Source: Pirellulales bacterium (GTDB taxonomy: Bacteria > Planctomycetota > Planctomycetia > Pirellulales > JAICIG01). From it: a stretch of 28,184 nt of DNA. The position numbers and the translations under genes were made by a program. Below are positions 18,092 to 28,184 of this stretch, piece after piece. The first letter of the stretch is position 1. Every line of letters begins with the position of its first letter. The notes beneath the pieces were generated by a model, which was given only the letters and a program-made list of their open reading frames with translations, was not told where the DNA came from and did no database searches. The DNA lies in the NCBI GenBank assembly GCA_025924495.1, contig JAICIG010000035.1, forward strand, positions 1 through 28,184, written 5' to 3'.

Positions 18092-19912
18092 CTACAATGA
18101 CTTCAGATACTCGATCAGATCCTTCAATTCCGCTTCGCTTAACTCCCCCTGCCCCGTAACTTTTTCCGGATTGTGCGGGCCCGTGAGGACTTGCTCCAGG
18201 CGCTTGCCTCGACCGTCGTGCAGCAAGCGCACGCGATAGTAGACGCCTAAGAGCGACGGCGTGTTGTAGCCTTCGTACTCGTCTCGCGGGCTGCCCAGGC
18301 CGACATCGTGAATCTTTCCGTCGGTAAAGTAAGGTCCATTGTGGCAGTTGGCGCAGCCGGCTTTTTCGCTTTCGAAAACCCTCTTGCCTCGCTGCGCCGC
18401 CGCGGAAAGTTCCCCTCCCGTCTCGCGATGCGGGTTCGGCGGCGATTCCACTTCCGACAAGTAAGCCACCATGGCGCGCACGTCGTTGTCCGTCGGCTCG
18501 GGGCCTAACATCGTCTCGGTGAGGCTCTTGCGCATGGCCGCTGCGAGATCGGTTTGCCAGCCATGCCAGGTCCATGGCGCCGTCTTAGCGACGTTGCGCA
18601 GCGAGAGCACCGTTTTGAAGGTCTGTAACGAGCCGTCGTTGAGCGTGTCCATGGCCACGGCGTTCGTCGTGCCTTCGTAATGGCAACTGTGGCAGCTATA
18701 CCATTGATCGAGGCTCCGTTGGCCATCGTAAAAAATGGCTTCTCCGCGACGCGCCAAGGTGGGAGTTTCTGACCCGCCTAAGGCAATCGCCTGAGTGACC
18801 TTTCGCTCCTCGAGATCGACGATCTGCACCGAGTTGAGCAGGTAATTGGCGACGAACACGCGACGATTGTCTCGACTGACGCGCAGCCCCATCGGTCGGC
18901 CGCCGAGCGGCACGCGATAGAATCGCTTTTCGTCGAAAGCCAGGATCGGATCGATGTGATCGCCCGGCCCGCCGTAGTCTTGCAGCACCAGACCCTCAGT
19001 TCGATAGACAAGCAGCTCGTGCGTGCCCGAGGCCGATGCCACGAGCCAGGCTTCGTCGTGCGTCAGGCCAATGCCATGCGGATCGCTGACCGCCTTGCCG
19101 CGCGGATCGAGCGTCATTGCTTCGCGGCGCGCCTGTTCGTCGAGCCGCACTCGAGCGATGCGGCTGCCCAAAACCCAGCCGGCCTGAATATTCCGGTGGT
19201 TGATCGGATTCTGGCGGTACACCATCCAAGGAAACCAGGCATATTTGCCGTCGGCGCTGGTTTGCAGATGGCCGATATTGATGCCTTGAATGCGTTCTTC
19301 GAAGGCCAATTGGCGCGTTGCCGTGTCGACGACGCAGATGCTTTGATCGCCGCTCGTTCCCACCGCCAGCCGGCTGCCATCCGGCGTCAGCGCAAGATAA
19401 CGAGGCCAGCGGCCGACTTCGATCTTCTCGGCCAGCGCGAGTCGCTCCAGGTCGAGCACCGCCACCGCCGAGGCCGCTTGCAATGCAACGTAAGCGAGCT
19501 TGCCATCGGGCGAAATGGCGATGCCCACCGGTTCGAAGCCAACCTGAATGGAGCCGGTCTTGGTCAGTGCGCCGCCCGAGCACGTAAAAACATCGACGGC
19601 GCCAGCATAGGTCCCGGTGACGAGCAACGTGCGGCCGTCGGGCGACAAAGCCAGACTGCTCGGGTGATGCGAGCAGTCAACTTCGGCAACCACGCGAGCC
19701 TTCTCAACATCGACCAACGAGACCGTGTCGGCCGTCTGGTTCACGACGTAGAGCCAGCGTTCATCGGACGATAGCACCAAATCGACGGGCGATCGATCGA
19801 CGGAGGAAAGGGTTCGCGCCGGGGCCTCGCCCCGTGCACTGCCGGCGAGAGCTACGCACGCCGAGGCGAGCGCAAGCACACCTGATCGAAAACTTCGCAT
19901 AGCGAGTCCCAT
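18092..19912 (-). CDS. YVTN beta-propeller di-heme cytochrome c (MauG/cytochrome c peroxidase-like)
   Basis: 606 residues from the ATG at 19912; a TTG at 19957 adds unlikely residues, and a second ATG at 19900 is also possible. After a signal peptide (SGVLALASACVALAGSARG), residues 25-385 form a YVTN-type propeller (LVLSSDERWLYVVNQTADTV, SLALSPDGRTLLVTGTYAG, VGIAISPDGKLAYVALQ, VSRDNRRVFVANYLLNSVQI). The C-terminal part has two heme sites, Cys407-His-Ser-Cys410-His411 and Cys520-Ala-Asn-Cys523-His524, with FFDG-like context GEAIFYDGQRSLDQW, SLRNVAKTAPWTWHG and PSLLGVYYR typical of MauG/CCP-type di-heme enzymes. It is probably periplasmic and either a peroxidase or an oxidase acting on a protein partner. 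A thioredoxin-fold lipoprotein gene follows. Confidence 0.92.
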   Translation of the reverse strand: MGLAMRSFRSGVLALASACVALAGSARGEAPARTLSSVDRSPVDLVLSSDERWLYVVNQTADTVSLVDVEKARVVAEVDCSHHPSSLALSPDGRTLLVTGTYAGAVDVFTCSGGALTKTGSIQVGFEPVGIAISPDGKLAYVALQAASAVAVLDLERLALAEKIEVGRWPRYLALTPDGSRLAVGTSGDQSICVVDTATRQLAFEERIQGINIGHLQTSADGKYAWFPWMVYRQNPINHRNIQAGWVLGSRIARVRLDEQARREAMTLDPRGKAVSDPHGIGLTHDEAWLVASASGTHELLVYRTEGLVLQDYGGPGDHIDPILAFDEKRFYRVPLGGRPMGLRVSRDNRRVFVANYLLNSVQIVDLEERKVTQAIALGGSETPTLARRGEAIFYDGQRSLDQWYSCHSCHYEGTTNAVAMDTLNDGSLQTFKTVLSLRNVAKTAPWTWHGWQTDLAAAMRKSLTETMLGPEPTDNDVRAMVAYLSEVESPPNPHRETGGELSAAAQRGKRVFESEKAGCANCHNGPYFTDGKIHDVGLGSPRDEYEGYNTPSLLGVYYRVRLLHDGRGKRLEQVLTGPHNPEKVTGQGELSEAELKDLIEYLKSL

Positions 19913-20007
19913 GAGCGACAGCCTTTCGTTCGGATCCGCTCGGCAAACCGGCCCCAAGCGTCTCCTATCCTAGCCCGTCGCGCCCGTAGCGCGAAGCGCA
20001 AGACGGC

Positions 20008-22465: not shown

Positions 22466-24106
22466 TTACGGCAAGATCCGCCGGCCAACCGCCGTGTTCA
22501 ATTGCAGCATGCTGCGGCGATGCCGCAGAGCGGCCTCGCGATACTGGCGCACCACGTCATTGTGGCGGCGCTGTGCGTCGAGATAGTCGACAACGCTCTG
22601 TTCCCCCACGGTAAAGCGCCGCAACGCCGCACTGCGAATGCTCTCCGACCGTGGCATGATATCGCGTTCGATGCGTTGGACTGCGTTGCGGCTCGACTTG
22701 TATTCCAGTTCCGCTCGTTCCACCTCCAACATCACTTGTCGCTCTACTCCGGCAAGCGCTGTGCGCGTTTGTGCGACATTCAAGGAGGCGCGGCGAATCT
22801 CTCCTTGATTGCGATTGTAAAGGGGAATCGTGCCCATCGCGCCAACCGACCAACTGGTGGCGTTCTGTCCGCCTGTCGGCGCGTTATTGCGGAATTCGTA
22901 AGGCGAGTAGAGTACGAAGACGTCGGAGAATCGCTCCTTGCGTAGTAGACGCACGTCGGCCTGAGCTCGTTGAATGCCCAAGCGAAAGGCTGCCAGATCG
23001 GGACGAGCGCCCAAGGCCATGCCGATCAACTCGTCATGCGGCGGCGGCGGGGGAGCCGTGTCGCGAATCGTGCCGCGTAGCTGCAACTGCTCGGCCTGCG
23101 CGGGCGACATGTTCAGCATTGCTGCGAGCGTATGCTTGGCTTGCAGTAACTGCGAGCGAGCCTGCTCCAAGCCGATCTCCGCTGAGTCTCGTTGAATGGC
23201 GATCGTCTCCAGATCGGCCTGCGTGATGCCGCCGCCTCGCAATTGCAACTCGGCGGCGTGGTAAATTTTGTTGACTCCGGCCAAGCTGGCTTCGGCATAT
23301 CGCAAGGTCTCGCGAGCTACCAGCACGTCGAGATAGGCCACATGCAACTCTTCAATCGCAATGCGCACGGCATCTTGATACTGCGCCTCGAGCACCTGCA
23401 GCGCGCGACTCGCGGCGACCTCGCGAGCACGGCGCTTGTGATTCAGATCGAATGGATGGATCACCGTCATGCTGTAGCCGTTCTCGCCCGGCCGAGCAGG
23501 CGTATAAGCCTTGTACGGATAACTTGAGGCCGAGAAAAAGACGAACGGATTGGCTCGCAATCCCGCCGTCAGCACGTCAGCCCGGGCTTGCGGAATCTCG
23601 TAAAACTTCGATCGCAAGTCGTAATTGTCTCGCACCAGGCGTTCGATCGCCTCGTCCAGGGTCAGACCATTCGGCGGCCCTTCGTCGGCCGAGACCGGAA
23701 GTTCCAGCGAGCCGTAAATCGACGGCACTTCTTCCACGGCCAGACGCGGTTGCGCCAATTGCATGGCGGGAGTTCGCGGCGCCATGCCCACGGTCGGGCC
23801 CGCCGCTGCGGCAGAGAGCACGTCGCGGTTGCTGCCGCGAAATCGATCGGTCGAACGCGCCGGGTTGGTCATTTCTTCGACCCTGGAGCCGCGGCCGCCG
23901 GGATCGAACCGGAAAGGATTGGCGCCGGCGCCGGGCGCCCTGCCCAGCGGGGTGGTCGTTCTCCCCCGCTCCTGCTGCTGCAGCCCCTTCGAGAGGACAA
24001 TGATCTCGTCCGATAATGCCGCCAACTGCGCGTCGGCCCTCTCCGCTCGGACAAAAACGAGACACGCCGACAGCAATATGAGGCAGCGAAATATGCGAAT
24101 CTTCAT
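22466..24106 (-). CDS. TolC-family outer-membrane efflux protein of the metal-efflux locus
   Basis: 546 residues from the ATG at 24106, where a signal peptide begins (MKIRIFRCLILLSACLVFVRA); the open frame extends 37 codons upstream. About 95 residues rich in Arg, Gly and Pro come next (coil start LSDEIIVLSKGLQQQERG), with no counterpart in ordinary TolC proteins. The outer-membrane factor domain then starts at GLTLDEAIERLVRDNYDLRS and contains the two-fold coiled-coil repeats (ELHVAYLDVLVARETLRYAE, AELEYKSSRNAVQRIERDIM, FTVGEQSVVDYLDAQRRHND). It forms the trimeric channel and periplasmic tunnel for the RND pump. The gene is divergent from the adaptor and pump genes, with 297 bp between. Confidence 0.91.
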   Translation of the reverse strand: MKIRIFRCLILLSACLVFVRAERADAQLAALSDEIIVLSKGLQQQERGRTTTPLGRAPGAGANPFRFDPGGRGSRVEEMTNPARSTDRFRGSNRDVLSAAAAGPTVGMAPRTPAMQLAQPRLAVEEVPSIYGSLELPVSADEGPPNGLTLDEAIERLVRDNYDLRSKFYEIPQARADVLTAGLRANPFVFFSASSYPYKAYTPARPGENGYSMTVIHPFDLNHKRRAREVAASRALQVLEAQYQDAVRIAIEELHVAYLDVLVARETLRYAEASLAGVNKIYHAAELQLRGGGITQADLETIAIQRDSAEIGLEQARSQLLQAKHTLAAMLNMSPAQAEQLQLRGTIRDTAPPPPPHDELIGMALGARPDLAAFRLGIQRAQADVRLLRKERFSDVFVLYSPYEFRNNAPTGGQNATSWSVGAMGTIPLYNRNQGEIRRASLNVAQTRTALAGVERQVMLEVERAELEYKSSRNAVQRIERDIMPRSESIRSAALRRFTVGEQSVVDYLDAQRRHNDVVRQYREAALRHRRSMLQLNTAVGRRILP

Positions 24107-24403
24107 CCGTTCGGTTTCCCTAAAACGCTTGCCGCGGCGGTCGCTATCGTAGGCAGATTCATAAAATGCAGCAGTAACGATCTCAGGGGTGTTGTCGGCC
24201 CTATCGAAGATGCGCAATAAGCCGAATTTCTCTAAGGCGCCATGACCGGCACAGCCGGAAAAGTTCGCTCAATTGCGCAGAATTGGGCGGGCCCGTGGTC
24301 CGGCCTGCCGATAATGCTTATAATCTGACGCACACCCCTTGCCTCTCTGCCGGGGGCTATTGCCGAGGAAAATCACTGACGCGTTCCCTGGTTCCTAGAG
24401 CCG
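24107..24403. promoter_or_regulatory. Divergent control region of the metal-efflux locus
   Basis: This 297-bp gap separates the TolC gene from the Cys/His-rich gene. TATAAT at 24319-24324 is a perfect -10 hexamer on the plus strand, about 80 bp before the ATG at 24404. No good -35 hexamer is 15-19 bp upstream, which would fit a promoter needing an activator (inference). A short inverted repeat, CAATT-N6-AATTG, lies near 24270-24285. No regulator gene is in the part of the locus that I can see. Confidence 0.4.
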
Positions 24404-24946
24404 ATGCCAACCTCGCAGATCACGAATCGCTGGCGACGCCTGACCGCTCTTTGTAGCGTGGCGGTATTGCTGGCGGCGGGTATGCCGGGCAAATCAACAT
24501 TCGGCGGCCAGCACTCGTGCAGCTTTGAACAGGGCGATCGCAATCATCACCACTCGTGCACCGCAAGCCATTACCACTGCCCAAGCGAGCACGCTCTGGC
24601 AGGGCAGCATGAAGTGCATTTCGTCGGCGCCACGTTCAGTCATGTTGGCTCAACTTTTGTCGGTTCGAGCTGCGCTTGCTGGACTTGCGGTTGCGGTTCT
24701 CATTCGGCATGCCCGACTAACGACAACCAGTTACCAGGCGCCTGCCATGGTCCCGCTTGTCCTGCCTGCCCGAGTTGTCCGACCTGCCCGGGTTGCTGCC
24801 ATTGCAGCCTGGCTCAGGTGGTTTGCATCGTCGCGTCAGTTCCGCCGGTTCACTTGGACTCGAACCTGACTTCAAGCACGCCCGAACTGCGGGCGCTCTA
24901 TTCGTCGCCCTGCCACGGTCGGACGACGCCGCCGCCTAAGGCCTGA
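24404..24946 (+). CDS. Exported Cys/His-rich protein, candidate periplasmic metal-binding protein
   Basis: 180 residues; I recognise no family. A signal peptide (RWRRLTALCSVAVLLAAGMPG) is followed by about 150 residues containing 18 Cys and 15 His by my count. Clusters are NHHHSC, SHYHC, SSCACWTCGCGSH and, near residues 121-138, CHGPACPACPSCPTCPGCCH, a run of C-P-x-C steps. This composition suggests binding of several soft or borderline metal ions such as Zn, Cd, Cu or Ag. It lies 203 bp upstream of the adaptor gene on the same strand, in the control region side of the efflux locus. The coding frame keeps Cys and His codons in a GC-rich setting rather than the Arg/Ala of noise frames, which supports it as real. 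A role as a metal sponge or chaperone is inference. Confidence 0.72.
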   Translation: MPTSQITNRWRRLTALCSVAVLLAAGMPGKSTFGGQHSCSFEQGDRNHHHSCTASHYHCPSEHALAGQHEVHFVGATFSHVGSTFVGSSCACWTCGCGSHSACPTNDNQLPGACHGPACPACPSCPTCPGCCHCSLAQVVCIVASVPPVHLDSNLTSSTPELRALYSSPCHGRTTPPPKA

Positions 24947-25149
24947 GCTGCCGGGCAAGCGCAATACCGGCATGCGCCGATTTTGTGCACCACGGCTCCC
25001 CTCCAGAGTTCCTCTGCGTCTTTCGTTTTTGACGATGGATGCACCTGCCACCGAACTGCTTTTTCTGTCTGAAATAAATCGAACGTTTCGGCGACTGCGT
25101 CCTGCCCGCAGCAGCGCTTCGCCGCCGGGTTCCGCTTGAGGAAGCAAGT

Positions 25150-26778
25150 ATGAAGCCGTCCGCACACGATCCATCGACCACTTCGAGCGACGCCGCATTG
25201 GATCAGCGAGCGCCAAGCGGCGAAGACCAGCCTACGCCCGTCTCCGCGCTCCGCCGGATTGCGACGCCGATGCTGATTTTCTGTACGCTTGGCGCGCTGG
25301 CCTTCTGGGGCCACCACAGCGGCTGGAGCCTGGCGGCGCTCGCCGCGCTGCCCGGCCAGGAAAAATCGCCGGAGATCGAGTGGTGCGATGCACATAACGT
25401 GCTCGAAGCGGAATGCATCGAATGTAATCCGAAGCTGTTGCCGCGCACCAAGACGCACGGCTGGTGCAAACAGCATGGGGTGCACGACTGCCCGCTCTGT
25501 AATCCCGATGTCGTCCAACTGGCTGCCAAGCCTCAATTCGTCGACGCAGATCGACAGCGAGCCAGCCGGGCGTTGGCGATTGGCGAGCGCCCACGTAACA
25601 ACAGCAAGTGCCAGCTTTATCTGCGGCGTATTCAGTTTTCTTCGGCCGACGCGGTGGAAAAAGCCGGCATCAAGGTCGAGCCGGTCTGGCGCACGTCGAT
25701 CGTCGAGTCGGTGTCGGCCAACGGTCAACTGGGTTACGACCAGACGCGGTCGGCGCACCTGTCTTCCCGTCGCGCCGGCACGGTGTGGCGGGTGGAAAAG
25801 CAGCTGGGAGATCGGGTCGTCAAAGGAGAGGTGCTGGCTCTCGTTGACGCCGCGGAAGTGGGGCGCGCGAAGTCGGACTTTCTGCAGGCCTGGGTCCAGG
25901 CCGATCTGAAACGCCAGAACTACGGCTATTTGGAAGAAGCAGCCGGAGCCCTGCCCGCTCGCCAATTGCGCGAAGGCGCCTCGGCCATGCGCGAAGCGCA
26001 AATCCGCCTGCTCACGGCTCAGCAAGCGCTGGTCAATCTGGGTCTGCCGCTCGAGCTCGAAGAAGTCGAGGGCATGAAGACAGAAGAACTTGTCAGGCGT
26101 CTTCACTTCCTCGGCCTGCCCGATGAGCTGGTCAAGTCGCTCGATTCCAAGACCACGACCGCCAACCTGATCCCCATCACTTCGCCTTTGGATGGCATCG
26201 TCGTCACTCGAGACGTCGTCGCGGGCGAGGTGGTCGACGGAGCAAAGGTACTGTTCGCCGTCGCCGATGTCGATCACCTGTGGCTGACGCTCGACGTGCG
26301 CCTGGAAGACGCCGAACGCGTCGAACTCGGGCAACAGGTCCGCTTTCGTCCCGATGGCAGCGAGCAGCAAACGGAAGGCGCAATCTCCTGGATCAGCACC
26401 GAGGTGGACGAAAAAACGCGGACCGTCAAAGTGCGCGCGGAGTTGGCCAACCCAGAGCACCGCTGGAAGGCTTTCACCTTTGGCATCGGCGAGATTGTGT
26501 TGCGTGAAGAAGAGAACGCGATAGCCGTACCGAACGATGCCGTGCAGTTCGAAGGGGATTGCTACGTGGTGTTCGTGCGCGACAAGGACTTTTTGAAGAA
26601 GGACGCGCCCAAGCTGTTCCACGTACGCAATGTCCGCATCGGCGCCAAGAACGATCGCTATACGGAAATCATCGCGGGCGTGGCCCCTGCAGAATTGGTG
26701 GCCACGGCCGGCAGCAAAACGCTCAGCGCGGAGTTATTGAAGAACAATCTGGGCGAAGGCTGCGCCTGCCACCATTAG
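25150..26778 (+). CDS. RND efflux periplasmic adaptor (CzcB/CusB-like) with tandem Cys-His-Cys-Cys motifs
   Basis: 542 residues. A basic and membrane-spanning segment (residues 35-55) anchors the protein. Next comes a duplicated motif: Cys79-His82-Cys89-Cys92 and Cys106-His109-Cys114-Cys117, each starting W-C and ending C-N-P, likely a pair of small metal-binding knuckles. The adaptor core follows: VSANGQLGYDQTRSAHLSSR, a lipoyl half GTVWRVEKQLGDRVVKGEVL, an alpha-helical hairpin (about 230-310), the second lipoyl half ITSPLDGIVVTRDVVAGEVV, then beta-barrel and membrane-proximal domains. The protein ends GCACHH. It links the RND pump to the TolC channel. GAGGAAG at 25138-25144 is a good ribosome-binding site. 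The pump gene follows after 156 bp. Confidence 0.93.
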   Translation: MKPSAHDPSTTSSDAALDQRAPSGEDQPTPVSALRRIATPMLIFCTLGALAFWGHHSGWSLAALAALPGQEKSPEIEWCDAHNVLEAECIECNPKLLPRTKTHGWCKQHGVHDCPLCNPDVVQLAAKPQFVDADRQRASRALAIGERPRNNSKCQLYLRRIQFSSADAVEKAGIKVEPVWRTSIVESVSANGQLGYDQTRSAHLSSRRAGTVWRVEKQLGDRVVKGEVLALVDAAEVGRAKSDFLQAWVQADLKRQNYGYLEEAAGALPARQLREGASAMREAQIRLLTAQQALVNLGLPLELEEVEGMKTEELVRRLHFLGLPDELVKSLDSKTTTANLIPITSPLDGIVVTRDVVAGEVVDGAKVLFAVADVDHLWLTLDVRLEDAERVELGQQVRFRPDGSEQQTEGAISWISTEVDEKTRTVKVRAELANPEHRWKAFTFGIGEIVLREEENAIAVPNDAVQFEGDCYVVFVRDKDFLKKDAPKLFHVRNVRIGAKNDRYTEIIAGVAPAELVATAGSKTLSAELLKNNLGEGCACHH

Positions 26779-26934: not shown

Positions 26935-28184
26935 ATGCTGAACGCCATCATCGACTTCTCGCTGCGTCACCGCTGGGTCGTCATTGCCGCTACGCTGGCA
27001 TTGGCAGTCGCCGGCGCCGTGGCGCTGATGAAGATCGACATCGACGCCTTCCCCGACACGACGCCGGTGCAGGTGCAAATCAATACAGTCGCACCGGCCC
27101 TCGGTCCGGAAGAAGTCGAACGACAGATTACGTTTCCCATCGAGCAGGTCATCAGCGGCCTGCCCGGCTTGGAACATTTGCGGTCGATCTCGAAGTTTGG
27201 CCTATCCCAGGTGGTCGTCACGTTCGAGGACGGCATCGACATCTATTTCGCGCGGCAGTTGATCAACGAGCGTCTGTCGACCGCCAAGCTGCCCGCGGAG
27301 GTCGAACGCCCGCGCATGGGGCCCGTCTCGACCGGCCTCGGCGAAGTGCTGCATTACGTCGTCACGGCCCAGGGCGCCGATCTGTCGGAGTTGCGCACGA
27401 TTCACGATTGGACGATCCGTCCGCAAATGCGCACGGTCAAAGGGGCCGCCGAGATTAACACCTGGGGCGGCAACGAAAAACAGTATCAAATTCGCATCGA
27501 CCCGAATCGGTTGATCAAGTACGGTTTGACGTTCGACGAGATCGTCGACGCCGTCCATAAGAACAACCGCAATGTAGGCGGCGGCGCCATTCGCCATTCG
27601 GGCGGCTCGCTCTTGGTGCAAGGATTGGGCCGCACCACGAATGCCGAGCAGTTGCAGAACATCGTCATCAAGGCCCACGAGGGCGTCCCTATCCGTCTCC
27701 GCGACGTGGCCGAAGTGACGATCGGCCATGAGATCCGCCGCGGCGCCGTGACGGCCGACGGCAAGGGAGAAGTCGTGCTCGGGCTGGGCTTCATGTTGAT
27801 GGGCGAAAACAGCCACGAAGTCACCTGGGCTTTGAAGAACAAGCTCGACGAGATCAAGCCCAACCTCCCGTCCAACGTCAAGGTGGAGACCGTTTACGAT
27901 CGCACTGAGCTGGTCAGCCATGTGATCGATACGGTACGGAGGAACTTGTTCGAAGGCGGTCTGCTCGTGGTCGCCATCTTGTTCGCCTTTCTCGGCAATT
28001 TTCGGGCGGCTGCCATCGTCGCTCTGGCGATCCCGCTATCGATGCTGTTGGCGTTCTGCGGCATGTGGCGGTTCGGCATCTCGGCCAGCTTGCTCAGCTT
28101 GGGCGCGATCGACTTCGGGATGATCGTCGATAGCTCGGTGGTGATGGTGGAAAACTGTGTGCGGCACATCGCCCATGGCGATTC
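26935..28184 (+). CDS. Heavy-metal RND efflux pump, CzcA-like, N-terminal part (cut by window edge)
   Basis: The first 416 residues of a heavy-metal RND transporter of about 1030; the gene runs past the right edge. The N-terminal membrane helix (LRHRWVVIAATLALAVAGAV) is followed by IDAFPDTTPVQVQINTVAPA, GLEHLRSISKFGLSQVVVTF and INTWGGNEKQYQIRIDPNRL of the periplasmic porter domain. Membrane helices 2-4 begin near residue 335 (GGLLVVAILFAFLGNFRAA). Helix 4 carries Asp393, Asp399 and Glu406 in AIDFGMIVD...VMVEN, the same spacing as the proton-relay residues Asp402, Asp408 and Glu415 reported for CzcA. That points to divalent cations (Zn, Co, Cd or Ni) rather than Cu/Ag. It should form a trimer with the adaptor and the TolC protein. 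Confidence 0.95.
   Translation, partial: MLNAIIDFSLRHRWVVIAATLALAVAGAVALMKIDIDAFPDTTPVQVQINTVAPALGPEEVERQITFPIEQVISGLPGLEHLRSISKFGLSQVVVTFEDGIDIYFARQLINERLSTAKLPAEVERPRMGPVSTGLGEVLHYVVTAQGADLSELRTIHDWTIRPQMRTVKGAAEINTWGGNEKQYQIRIDPNRLIKYGLTFDEIVDAVHKNNRNVGGGAIRHSGGSLLVQGLGRTTNAEQLQNIVIKAHEGVPIRLRDVAEVTIGHEIRRGAVTADGKGEVVLGLGFMLMGENSHEVTWALKNKLDEIKPNLPSNVKVETVYDRTELVSHVIDTVRRNLFEGGLLVVAILFAFLGNFRAAAIVALAIPLSMLLAFCGMWRFGISASLLSLGAIDFGMIVDSSVVMVENCVRHIAHGD

Follow-up and report, generated by a model that had tools for sequence, protein, structure and literature searches.

The locus and its coding gene

We analyzed a contig of 28,184 nucleotides (nt) from a Pirellulales bacterium (JAICIG010000035.1 of assembly GCA_025924495.1; hereafter the window), in which a small Cys- and His-rich open reading frame (ORF), P0001, precedes the genes of a metal efflux system of the resistance-nodulation-division (RND) type. 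An earlier sequence-only reading had proposed that P0001 is an exported protein that captures metal in the periplasm and feeds the pump. The comparisons described here point to a candidate regulatory leader of the pump genes. The features of the locus are as follows.

24404..24946, plus strand: leader ORF P0001, a member of family A of planctomycete Cys-rich leaders; ATG to TGA, 180 amino acids (aa) plus stop
24404..24493, plus strand: signal-like N-terminus, residues 1-30 (WRRL..AVLLAAGMPG), with a predicted helix at residues 5-25
24494..24757, plus strand: variable Cys/His-rich segment, residues 31-118, with NHHHSC and SHYHC; start-to-Cys length variable
24758..24808, plus strand: conserved Cys module CPACPSCPTCPGCCHCS, residues 119-135, candidate metal sensor (alignment of 39 members)
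24809..24892, plus strand: linker, residues 136-163, variable in sequence, fixed in length (no indel relative to P0002)
24893..24943, plus strand: C-terminal tail ending in YSSPCHGRTTPPPKA, residues 164-180, identical in P0002
24947..25149, plus strand: spacer of 203 nt, C richer than G (skew +0.092), a proposed attenuation region (inferred)
25150..26778, plus strand: CzcB/HlyD-type adaptor (HlyD/CzcB domain; N-terminal WCxxH..CxxC and GWCxxHGVHxCPLC; GCACHH tail)
26935..28182, plus strand: CusA/CzcA-family RND pump, truncated by the window end (TIGR00914, E 2.3e-160)
22466..24109, minus strand: divergent outer-membrane efflux protein (OEP; PF02321) in a CzcC-like position

P0001 carries 19 Cys and 15 His, which make up 18.9% of its residues (22% counted from residue 31), close to the one in five given by the sequence-only reading. 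This is the highest Cys/His share among the 71 window ORFs of at least 100 aa, the runner-up having 10.1%. The NHHHSC and SHYHC clusters and the C-P-x-C ladder described earlier are present. The earlier reading had recognized no family, and P0001 indeed matched no Pfam family at E ≤ 10 and no NCBIfam model; a search of a plasmid collection gave no match.

The closest homolog, P0002, aligns with P0001 end to end without gaps at 86% identity, and retains all 19 Cys yet only 11 of the 15 His. The two proteins have 25 differences in 180 sites; residues 136-163 hold 15 of these and residues 164-180 none. The adaptor P0003 is 98% identical to the window adaptor, and the genes of P0002 and P0003 probably lie on one contig. 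In relatives with DNA at hand, nine of ten leader-gene pairs had ratios of nonsynonymous to synonymous substitution rates (dN/dS) of 0.15-0.61, and the tenth had saturated dS; three of the ten pairs, including the saturated one, belong to family A, and all are genes of relatives. The gap-free identity of P0002, the dN/dS values in relatives and the recovery of a family by a six-member profile (below) together confirm P0001, at the sequence level, as a real coding gene with a conserved reading frame.

Family A and its distribution

A single-sequence search with P0001 found P0002 as its sole homolog. A profile seeded with P0001, P0002 and one similar ORF each from loci L015, L032, L039 and L041 recovered 39 proteins at E ≤ 0.1, P0002 among them, so the single-sequence result reflects a limit of sensitivity. 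In total 53 sequences, with a few near-duplicates, were collected as family A; homologs, which the sequence-only reading had left to a profile search, thus exist. Members share a signal-like start, a Cys module of the form CPxCP..GCxxCS and a tail that places Pro-Pro-Lys/Arg at the stop codon. The consensus runs RLVSxxSLxAYLLANTH, CKHC, CPCCP..GGCAxCSVAKAPC, a variable linker, and YxxPxxxGLxRPPRA at the stop. Across the 39 aligned members, L13 is invariant and R12 nearly so in the N-terminus, while in the Cys module C119, C125, C131 and C134 are invariant and C122 is nearly so.

Family A was found in 14 of 95 genomes of one planctomycete family, and a set of 102 genomes of the same order gave again the same 14. 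A phylum survey with the profile was positive in 1 of 392 genomes and says little, because at most 9 candidates were scored per genome. None of four genomes of another order carried family A; the best match to the window adaptor among 346 genomes of that order was 53% identical. Among adaptors from named organisms, the one closest to the window adaptor is a Pirellulales protein (70% identity). Family A is apparently an undescribed planctomycete family, and among the papers listed by the literature searches (mostly open-access, bioRxiv excluded), judged largely by title, none describes metal-responsive leaders in planctomycetes.

A fixed number of residues between the Cys module and Pro-Pro

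In 49 of 53 members the Pro-Pro (PP) of the tail follows the last module Cys at a distance of exactly 43 residues (40/40 protein members and 11/15 genome members, two being common to both), and in L094 at 44. In P0001 the PP is residues 177-178, 43 residues after C134; in P0001 and P0002 the count of 43 is reached at the second PP of a PPP. The start-to-Cys length ranges from 92 to 191 residues, or from 33 if the 79-aa P0159 is counted (start codons as predicted). P0158-P0160 were excluded from alignment A3, and P0158 and P0160, which come without a C-terminus, from the spacing count. Mean pairwise identity among 48 members is 70% for the Cys module, 21% for the linker and 54% for the tail. 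The sequence of the linker is thus nearly free but its length is not, as its identity of about 21% is combined with a constant spacing. The C-terminus is PP[RK] plus one or two residues in 51/53 members, with R preceding PP in 47. One tail profile was built from sequences picked for PP[RKQ]x ends, and the PP count of that profile was not used.

The leader of L041 (9041-9667) carries several TSPTRxxGxxN-type repeats between the signal and the Cys module. They lengthen the leader and leave the Cys-to-stop distance unchanged. At L101 (1741-3297, minus strand), a family A-like frame reads through RPPRA, with no stop, into HlyD-like sequence; this fusion may be a deletion, decay or an assembly join.

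Judged from these alignments, family A is most constrained in the Cys module, the tail and the residue count between them, not in overall metal-binding content. This speaks against the periplasmic capture step put forward by the sequence-only reading, as the total content is not retained and the His clusters vary. The His clusters were also considered as the key feature of P0001 and were rejected, since 4/15 His differ in P0002.

In the AlphaFold2 model of P0001, residues 5-25 form the only confidently predicted helix, with no secondary structure past residue 25 at low confidence (predicted local distance difference test, pLDDT, 55.9). Metal is not modelled and the 39-sequence alignment is shallow. 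The model was not used for fold searches because of its pLDDT. The predicted helix at the N-terminus suggests that P0001 is probably exported.

Genes downstream of family A leaders

The sequence-only reading had placed P0001 beside a metal RND pump and an adaptor with extra Cys/His motifs. Both are borne out: the adaptor starts after a 203-bp gap and is followed by a CusA/CzcA-type gene (TIGR00914), and in addition to its N-terminal motifs it ends in a GCACHH tail. A tail of the GC[AT]CH type (window positions 26758-26775) is seen in the window and its six closest relatives (P0003-P0008); the other 18 of 25 aligned adaptors stop short of a Cys/His tail.

Seventeen family A loci, including the window, could be read downstream. 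Homologs lying mainly away from metal-efflux genes would have refuted the sequence-only reading, and this is not what was seen, although in four cases the neighbor is of MacB type. An RND-type adaptor comes next in nine (the window, L032, L039, L041, L089, L091, L095, L099 and L100), of which L032, L039 and L041 were found via the adaptor itself. A MacB/FtsX-type permease comes next in four (L096, L097, L098 and L102), with HlyD adaptors following, and an OEP in one (L090). In L092, L093 and L094 the next gene is unsettled, and there is an HlyD adaptor 1.9-3.2 kb further on. Matches in Pfam confirmed six adaptors (window, L089, L091, L095, L099 and L100), four RND genes (adjacent or in L092), all four permeases and both genes of the L090 pair, the L090 adaptor falling just below the Pfam cut-off and the L102 permease being tested as L015 (one and the same gene). 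The RND gene that follows the adaptor of L100 was assigned from its length and start only.

Elsewhere in the window, positions 18092-19957 (minus strand) encode a beta-propeller (lactonase/YNCE) fused to a MauG-type di-haem cytochrome c peroxidase domain.

Cys-rich leaders upstream of other adaptors

Alignment of the adaptor led to 65 genome loci, of which four were dropped for having less than 700 bp upstream. On the 61 kept, a leader rule was set: a small, Cys-rich ORF with a hydrophobic N-terminus that ends no more than 450 bp before the adaptor. Leaders defined by this rule precede 51/61 adaptors, or 57/61 with L027 and L028, assigned by eye, and four loci (L015, L035, L047 and L048) counted because the leader precedes the first of two tandem adaptors. 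No leader was found before the adaptors of L050, L052, L053 and L055. Applied to 262 other long ORFs of these loci, the same rule found leaders before 8/12 further adaptors, 8/21 OEP genes, 0/50 CzcA genes and 5/179 others. Of the five others, Pfam identified three as HlyD adaptors, one as a MacB permease and one as a HEAT-repeat protein (L012). Six more hits (two OEP, four others) form a separate lipoprotein family. One assembly with several adaptor loci (JAIOPV01) carries separate leaders at L003, L005, L012 and L020.

By sequence, the adaptor leaders appear to fall into several types without evident common sequence. Under a generic rule, 41 of 53 first-set leaders have their C-terminal-most Cys pair at 58-74 residues from the stop, compared with at most 16 in 200 shuffles; the range was read from this same set, and the 53 include the family A leaders of L032, L039 and L041. 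A replication set, in which a wider position window was used (to +330 of the longest ORF start), had leaders before 27/30 adaptors, 9 of the 27 being already in the first set. In all 17 distinct new leaders the Cys pair was 58-69 residues from the stop (200 shuffles, at most 7). The set missed L116, L134 and L109 (253 bp upstream). Of 70 leaders, 56 end in Ile or Leu. Subfamily anchors were chosen by eye and left 4/53 leaders unassigned, and a signal-to-Cys value of -31 is an artefact.

Some OEP genes that are divergent from the adaptor carry a Cys-rich leader of their own, as at L030 8485-8961, L034 8533-8991, L038 2511-2903, L059 5537-5998 and L064 1992-2621 (minus strand), and several of these leaders end in CRLLT, HLCRFLI or similar. 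For the window's OEP, the ORF list contains no leader. The small proteins encoded at L012 1528-1857, L035 5891-6310 and L048 110-442 have regular Cys spacing and, judged by eye, are presumably like four-helix copper-storage proteins. Lipoprotein-like ORFs with WWCxEHGxPEexCxxC occur at L014 10814, L018 13824, L030 15313, L031 11098, L032 7966 and L037 17610; some WWCxEHG ORFs precede a heavy-metal P-type ATPase-like gene (by eye), and the motif resembles the N-terminal motifs of the adaptors. In 35 WWCxEHG lipoproteins of these loci the Cys-to-stop distance is 24-48.

The spacer and its RNA

The spacer has more C than G in 43/53 loci, versus 103/272 control upstream regions, the spacers being measured to the tblastn match and not to an established start codon. 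Such a composition can have other causes. In the window, 24947-25080 folds better than shuffles (z -2.4). A hairpin at the Shine-Dalgarno (SD) site of the adaptor (GCTTGAGGAAGC before the ATG), suggestive by eye, is not supported by its score (z 0.17). Between 24100 and 25200, promoter- or terminator-like sites were no more frequent than by chance, and Rfam gave a single sub-threshold match only.

Comparison with known leaders

CruR of Bordetella pertussis (Bp2923, DUF2946/PF11162) is a leader in which altered Cys or spacing affects regulation (PMC9426467), and its arrest has been reported in a purified translation system (PMC12992588). Like P0001 it is small, predicted to be exported, and has a Cys metal motif with Pro-Pro near the stop. 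It is also the first ORF before a metal-transport gene, with a spacer of 162 bp versus 203 for P0001. The last Cys and PP are 48 residues apart in CruR and 43 in family A, and the spacing is near-fixed in both, a likeness of layout only. The cruR Rho-dependent region is reported to have a C>G composition (PMC9426467). In contrast, the RAPP tail of CruR differs from the RPP[RK]x or TPPPKA of family A, and the DUF2946 profile was absent from the hits of the 39 members at E ≤ 1. A few planctomycete DUF2946 homologs are mentioned in the CruR paper (PMC9426467), and DUF2946 itself was found in 2 of the 95 genomes of the first planctomycete family, in one of them above the cut-off. CruR precedes a TonB-dependent transporter lowered by copper, whereas P0001 precedes an exporter, and the sign of the response would therefore need to be opposite to that of CruR.

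CutF of Rhodobacter capsulatus has been proposed as a nascent-chain sensor that switches on expression of a copper oxidase, and genes of the CutF-like kind have been reported ahead of OEP, CusA/CzcA and CusB/CzcB genes (PMC9973294). The likeness to P0001, itself predicted to be exported, lies in an exported Cys protein with a Pro-rich C-terminus upstream of metal genes, and P0001 shows the traits of the CutF-like class (signal-like helix, Cys module, PP tail and gene position). CutF differs in its short spacer and a stem-loop that hides the SD; a CutF-like stem-loop is unsupported in the window because its SD region has z 0.17. CopL is described as a metal-binding leader required in cis for the downstream copper gene (PMC9973294). 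One of 39 members reaches E 0.0038 with the CopL model NF033807, and P0001 has no hits. Exported leaders of Planctomycetota, most of them bearing a signal sequence, with LPPP/XPPP in the last 15 residues (uA_LPPP), for which arrest was shown, are reported from Phycisphaerales, UBA1161 and WQYP01 (PMC10987492). They differ in being tied to protein-localization machinery (apparently secA, by the naming scheme), and the excerpted text mentions no metal module.

Proposed mechanism and alternative explanations

Taken together, the sequence comparisons make it fairly probable that P0001 is a metal-sensing leader that arrests its own translation and so controls the pump operon in cis. The signal-like N-terminus would direct the growing chain to the membrane. 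When the ribosome reaches Pro-Pro 177-178, with two sense codons left, the Cys module would be 43 residues back, at about the tunnel exit. Metal bound to the Cys module would hold the chain and stall the ribosome at PP. The parked ribosome would then keep Rho away from the spacer of 203 nt and the C-rich end of the leader, or open the RNA, and thereby turn on the adaptor and pump. Without metal, the leader would be completed and expression would stop in the spacer.

A cis-acting leader is favored because the fixed count runs to PP and the stop codon, endpoints that have more meaning for a translating ribosome than for a completed protein. It is favored over a carrier because those genomes in which several adaptor loci were seen carry separate leaders, and because the low-confidence structure prediction has no helix or strand beyond the signal helix.

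The finished protein could alternatively act in trans as a periplasmic modulator that binds metal and damps or gates the pump, like CzcI of Cupriavidus metallidurans, a small periplasmic protein that, like P0001, is directly upstream of a metal RND operon. Cupriavidus CzcI is encoded just upstream of czcCBA and is described as a quencher of pump activity toward zinc and cobalt (PMC10127602). Such a role would fit the position of the P0001 gene and the small size of its product, and export of P0001 is plausible from the predicted helix. We nevertheless regard it as unlikely: an exact count of 43 residues to PP has no evident purpose in a finished protein, no fold is predicted (at low confidence), and four relatives precede MacB-type permeases and not an RND adaptor. 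No CzcI model was among the NCBIfam hits. If P0001 instead collected metal ions and passed them to the Cys/His adaptor, or served as a sponge, as in the sequence-only reading, its high Cys and His content, the adaptor's own Cys/His motifs and its plausible export would be accounted for. It is not obvious why capture should call for one copy in each operon or a constant C-terminal count, and the PP[RK] tail of 51/53 members would have no evident role. In addition, 4/15 His change between the 86%-identical homologs, and the number of ligands varies in family A. These points leave the capture function distinctly improbable.

The fixed spacing would also be kept if the Cys module and tail formed a small metal-stabilized domain, in which case the spacing would be structural and the function might be, for example, stability or docking on the adaptor. 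The AlphaFold2 result is compatible with such a domain, as the model omits metal and the 39-sequence alignment is shallow, and the WWCxEHG lipoproteins, too, maintain an inner spacing. What makes a domain very unlikely is that the linker is about 20% identical and yet free of indels, and that other leader types, with no evident common sequence, have a near-fixed Cys-to-stop distance.

Several observations weigh against an arrest leader. A metal-folded unit, as just described, would keep its spacing as well, and the WWCxEHG lipoproteins likewise have their two Cys motifs a nearly constant 33-36 residues apart. P0001 is a divergent member of family A (20-29% identity to all others except P0002) and its tail, TTPPPKA, is unlike the RPP[RK]x of 47/53 members; RAPP or RGPP within the last 15 residues was found in 0/53. 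The search profile includes the tail, and members without a tail may be missed. The divergent L096, L097 and L098 have neither the 43-residue spacing with the tail at the stop nor RPP; all three precede MacB-type permeases, so that the spacing is absent in three of the four leaders before MacB/FtsX permeases. The leader is not always the first in its gene run: in L032 the end of a same-strand RND gene is 44 bp upstream of it when the longest ORF start is taken, and 143 bp with the alignment start. In the window, the adaptor SD region shows no excess of structure over shuffles (z 0.17), and the 203-nt spacer exceeds most CutF-like spacers (<100 nt; PMC9973294). Among the first-set leaders, 12/53 lie outside the 58-74 range, three of family A at 46 and nine at 80-142. 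At L012 (8080-8556, minus strand), a leader of the longer-spaced kind, ending in TPPLFIAHCTLLI, precedes the HEAT-repeat gene, which has no evident link to efflux.

Implications for planctomycete metal efflux

More tentatively, and with a probability that we place somewhat below even, the compared sequences suggest that several unrelated types of exported Cys-rich arrest leaders, sharing only their geometry, widely control planctomycete metal efflux operons and have evolved repeatedly. Leaders with a short ruler, such as family A with its 43 residues from Cys to PP, would read metal at the ribosome exit. Those with a long ruler, whose Cys pair is about 58-74 residues from a stop usually preceded by Ile or Leu, would read it at the periplasmic exit of the Sec channel. 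The long ruler of 58-74 residues would be of the order needed to span the ribosome and translocon, by analogy with the 67 residues reported as d for eukaryotic nascent chains (PMC6286305).

The metal leaders in the papers cited here (CruR, CutF and CopL) are proteobacterial. Searches by DUF2946 or RAPP would not list family A, because the RAPP count is 0/53 and DUF2946 gave no match. If our interpretation is true, the principle would be independent of DUF2946 and RAPP, and such leaders, with a different tail motif and an exact Cys-to-PP count, would in planctomycetes precede efflux rather than uptake genes. The assembly of ribosome and translocon would then be the measuring stick of a metal sensor.
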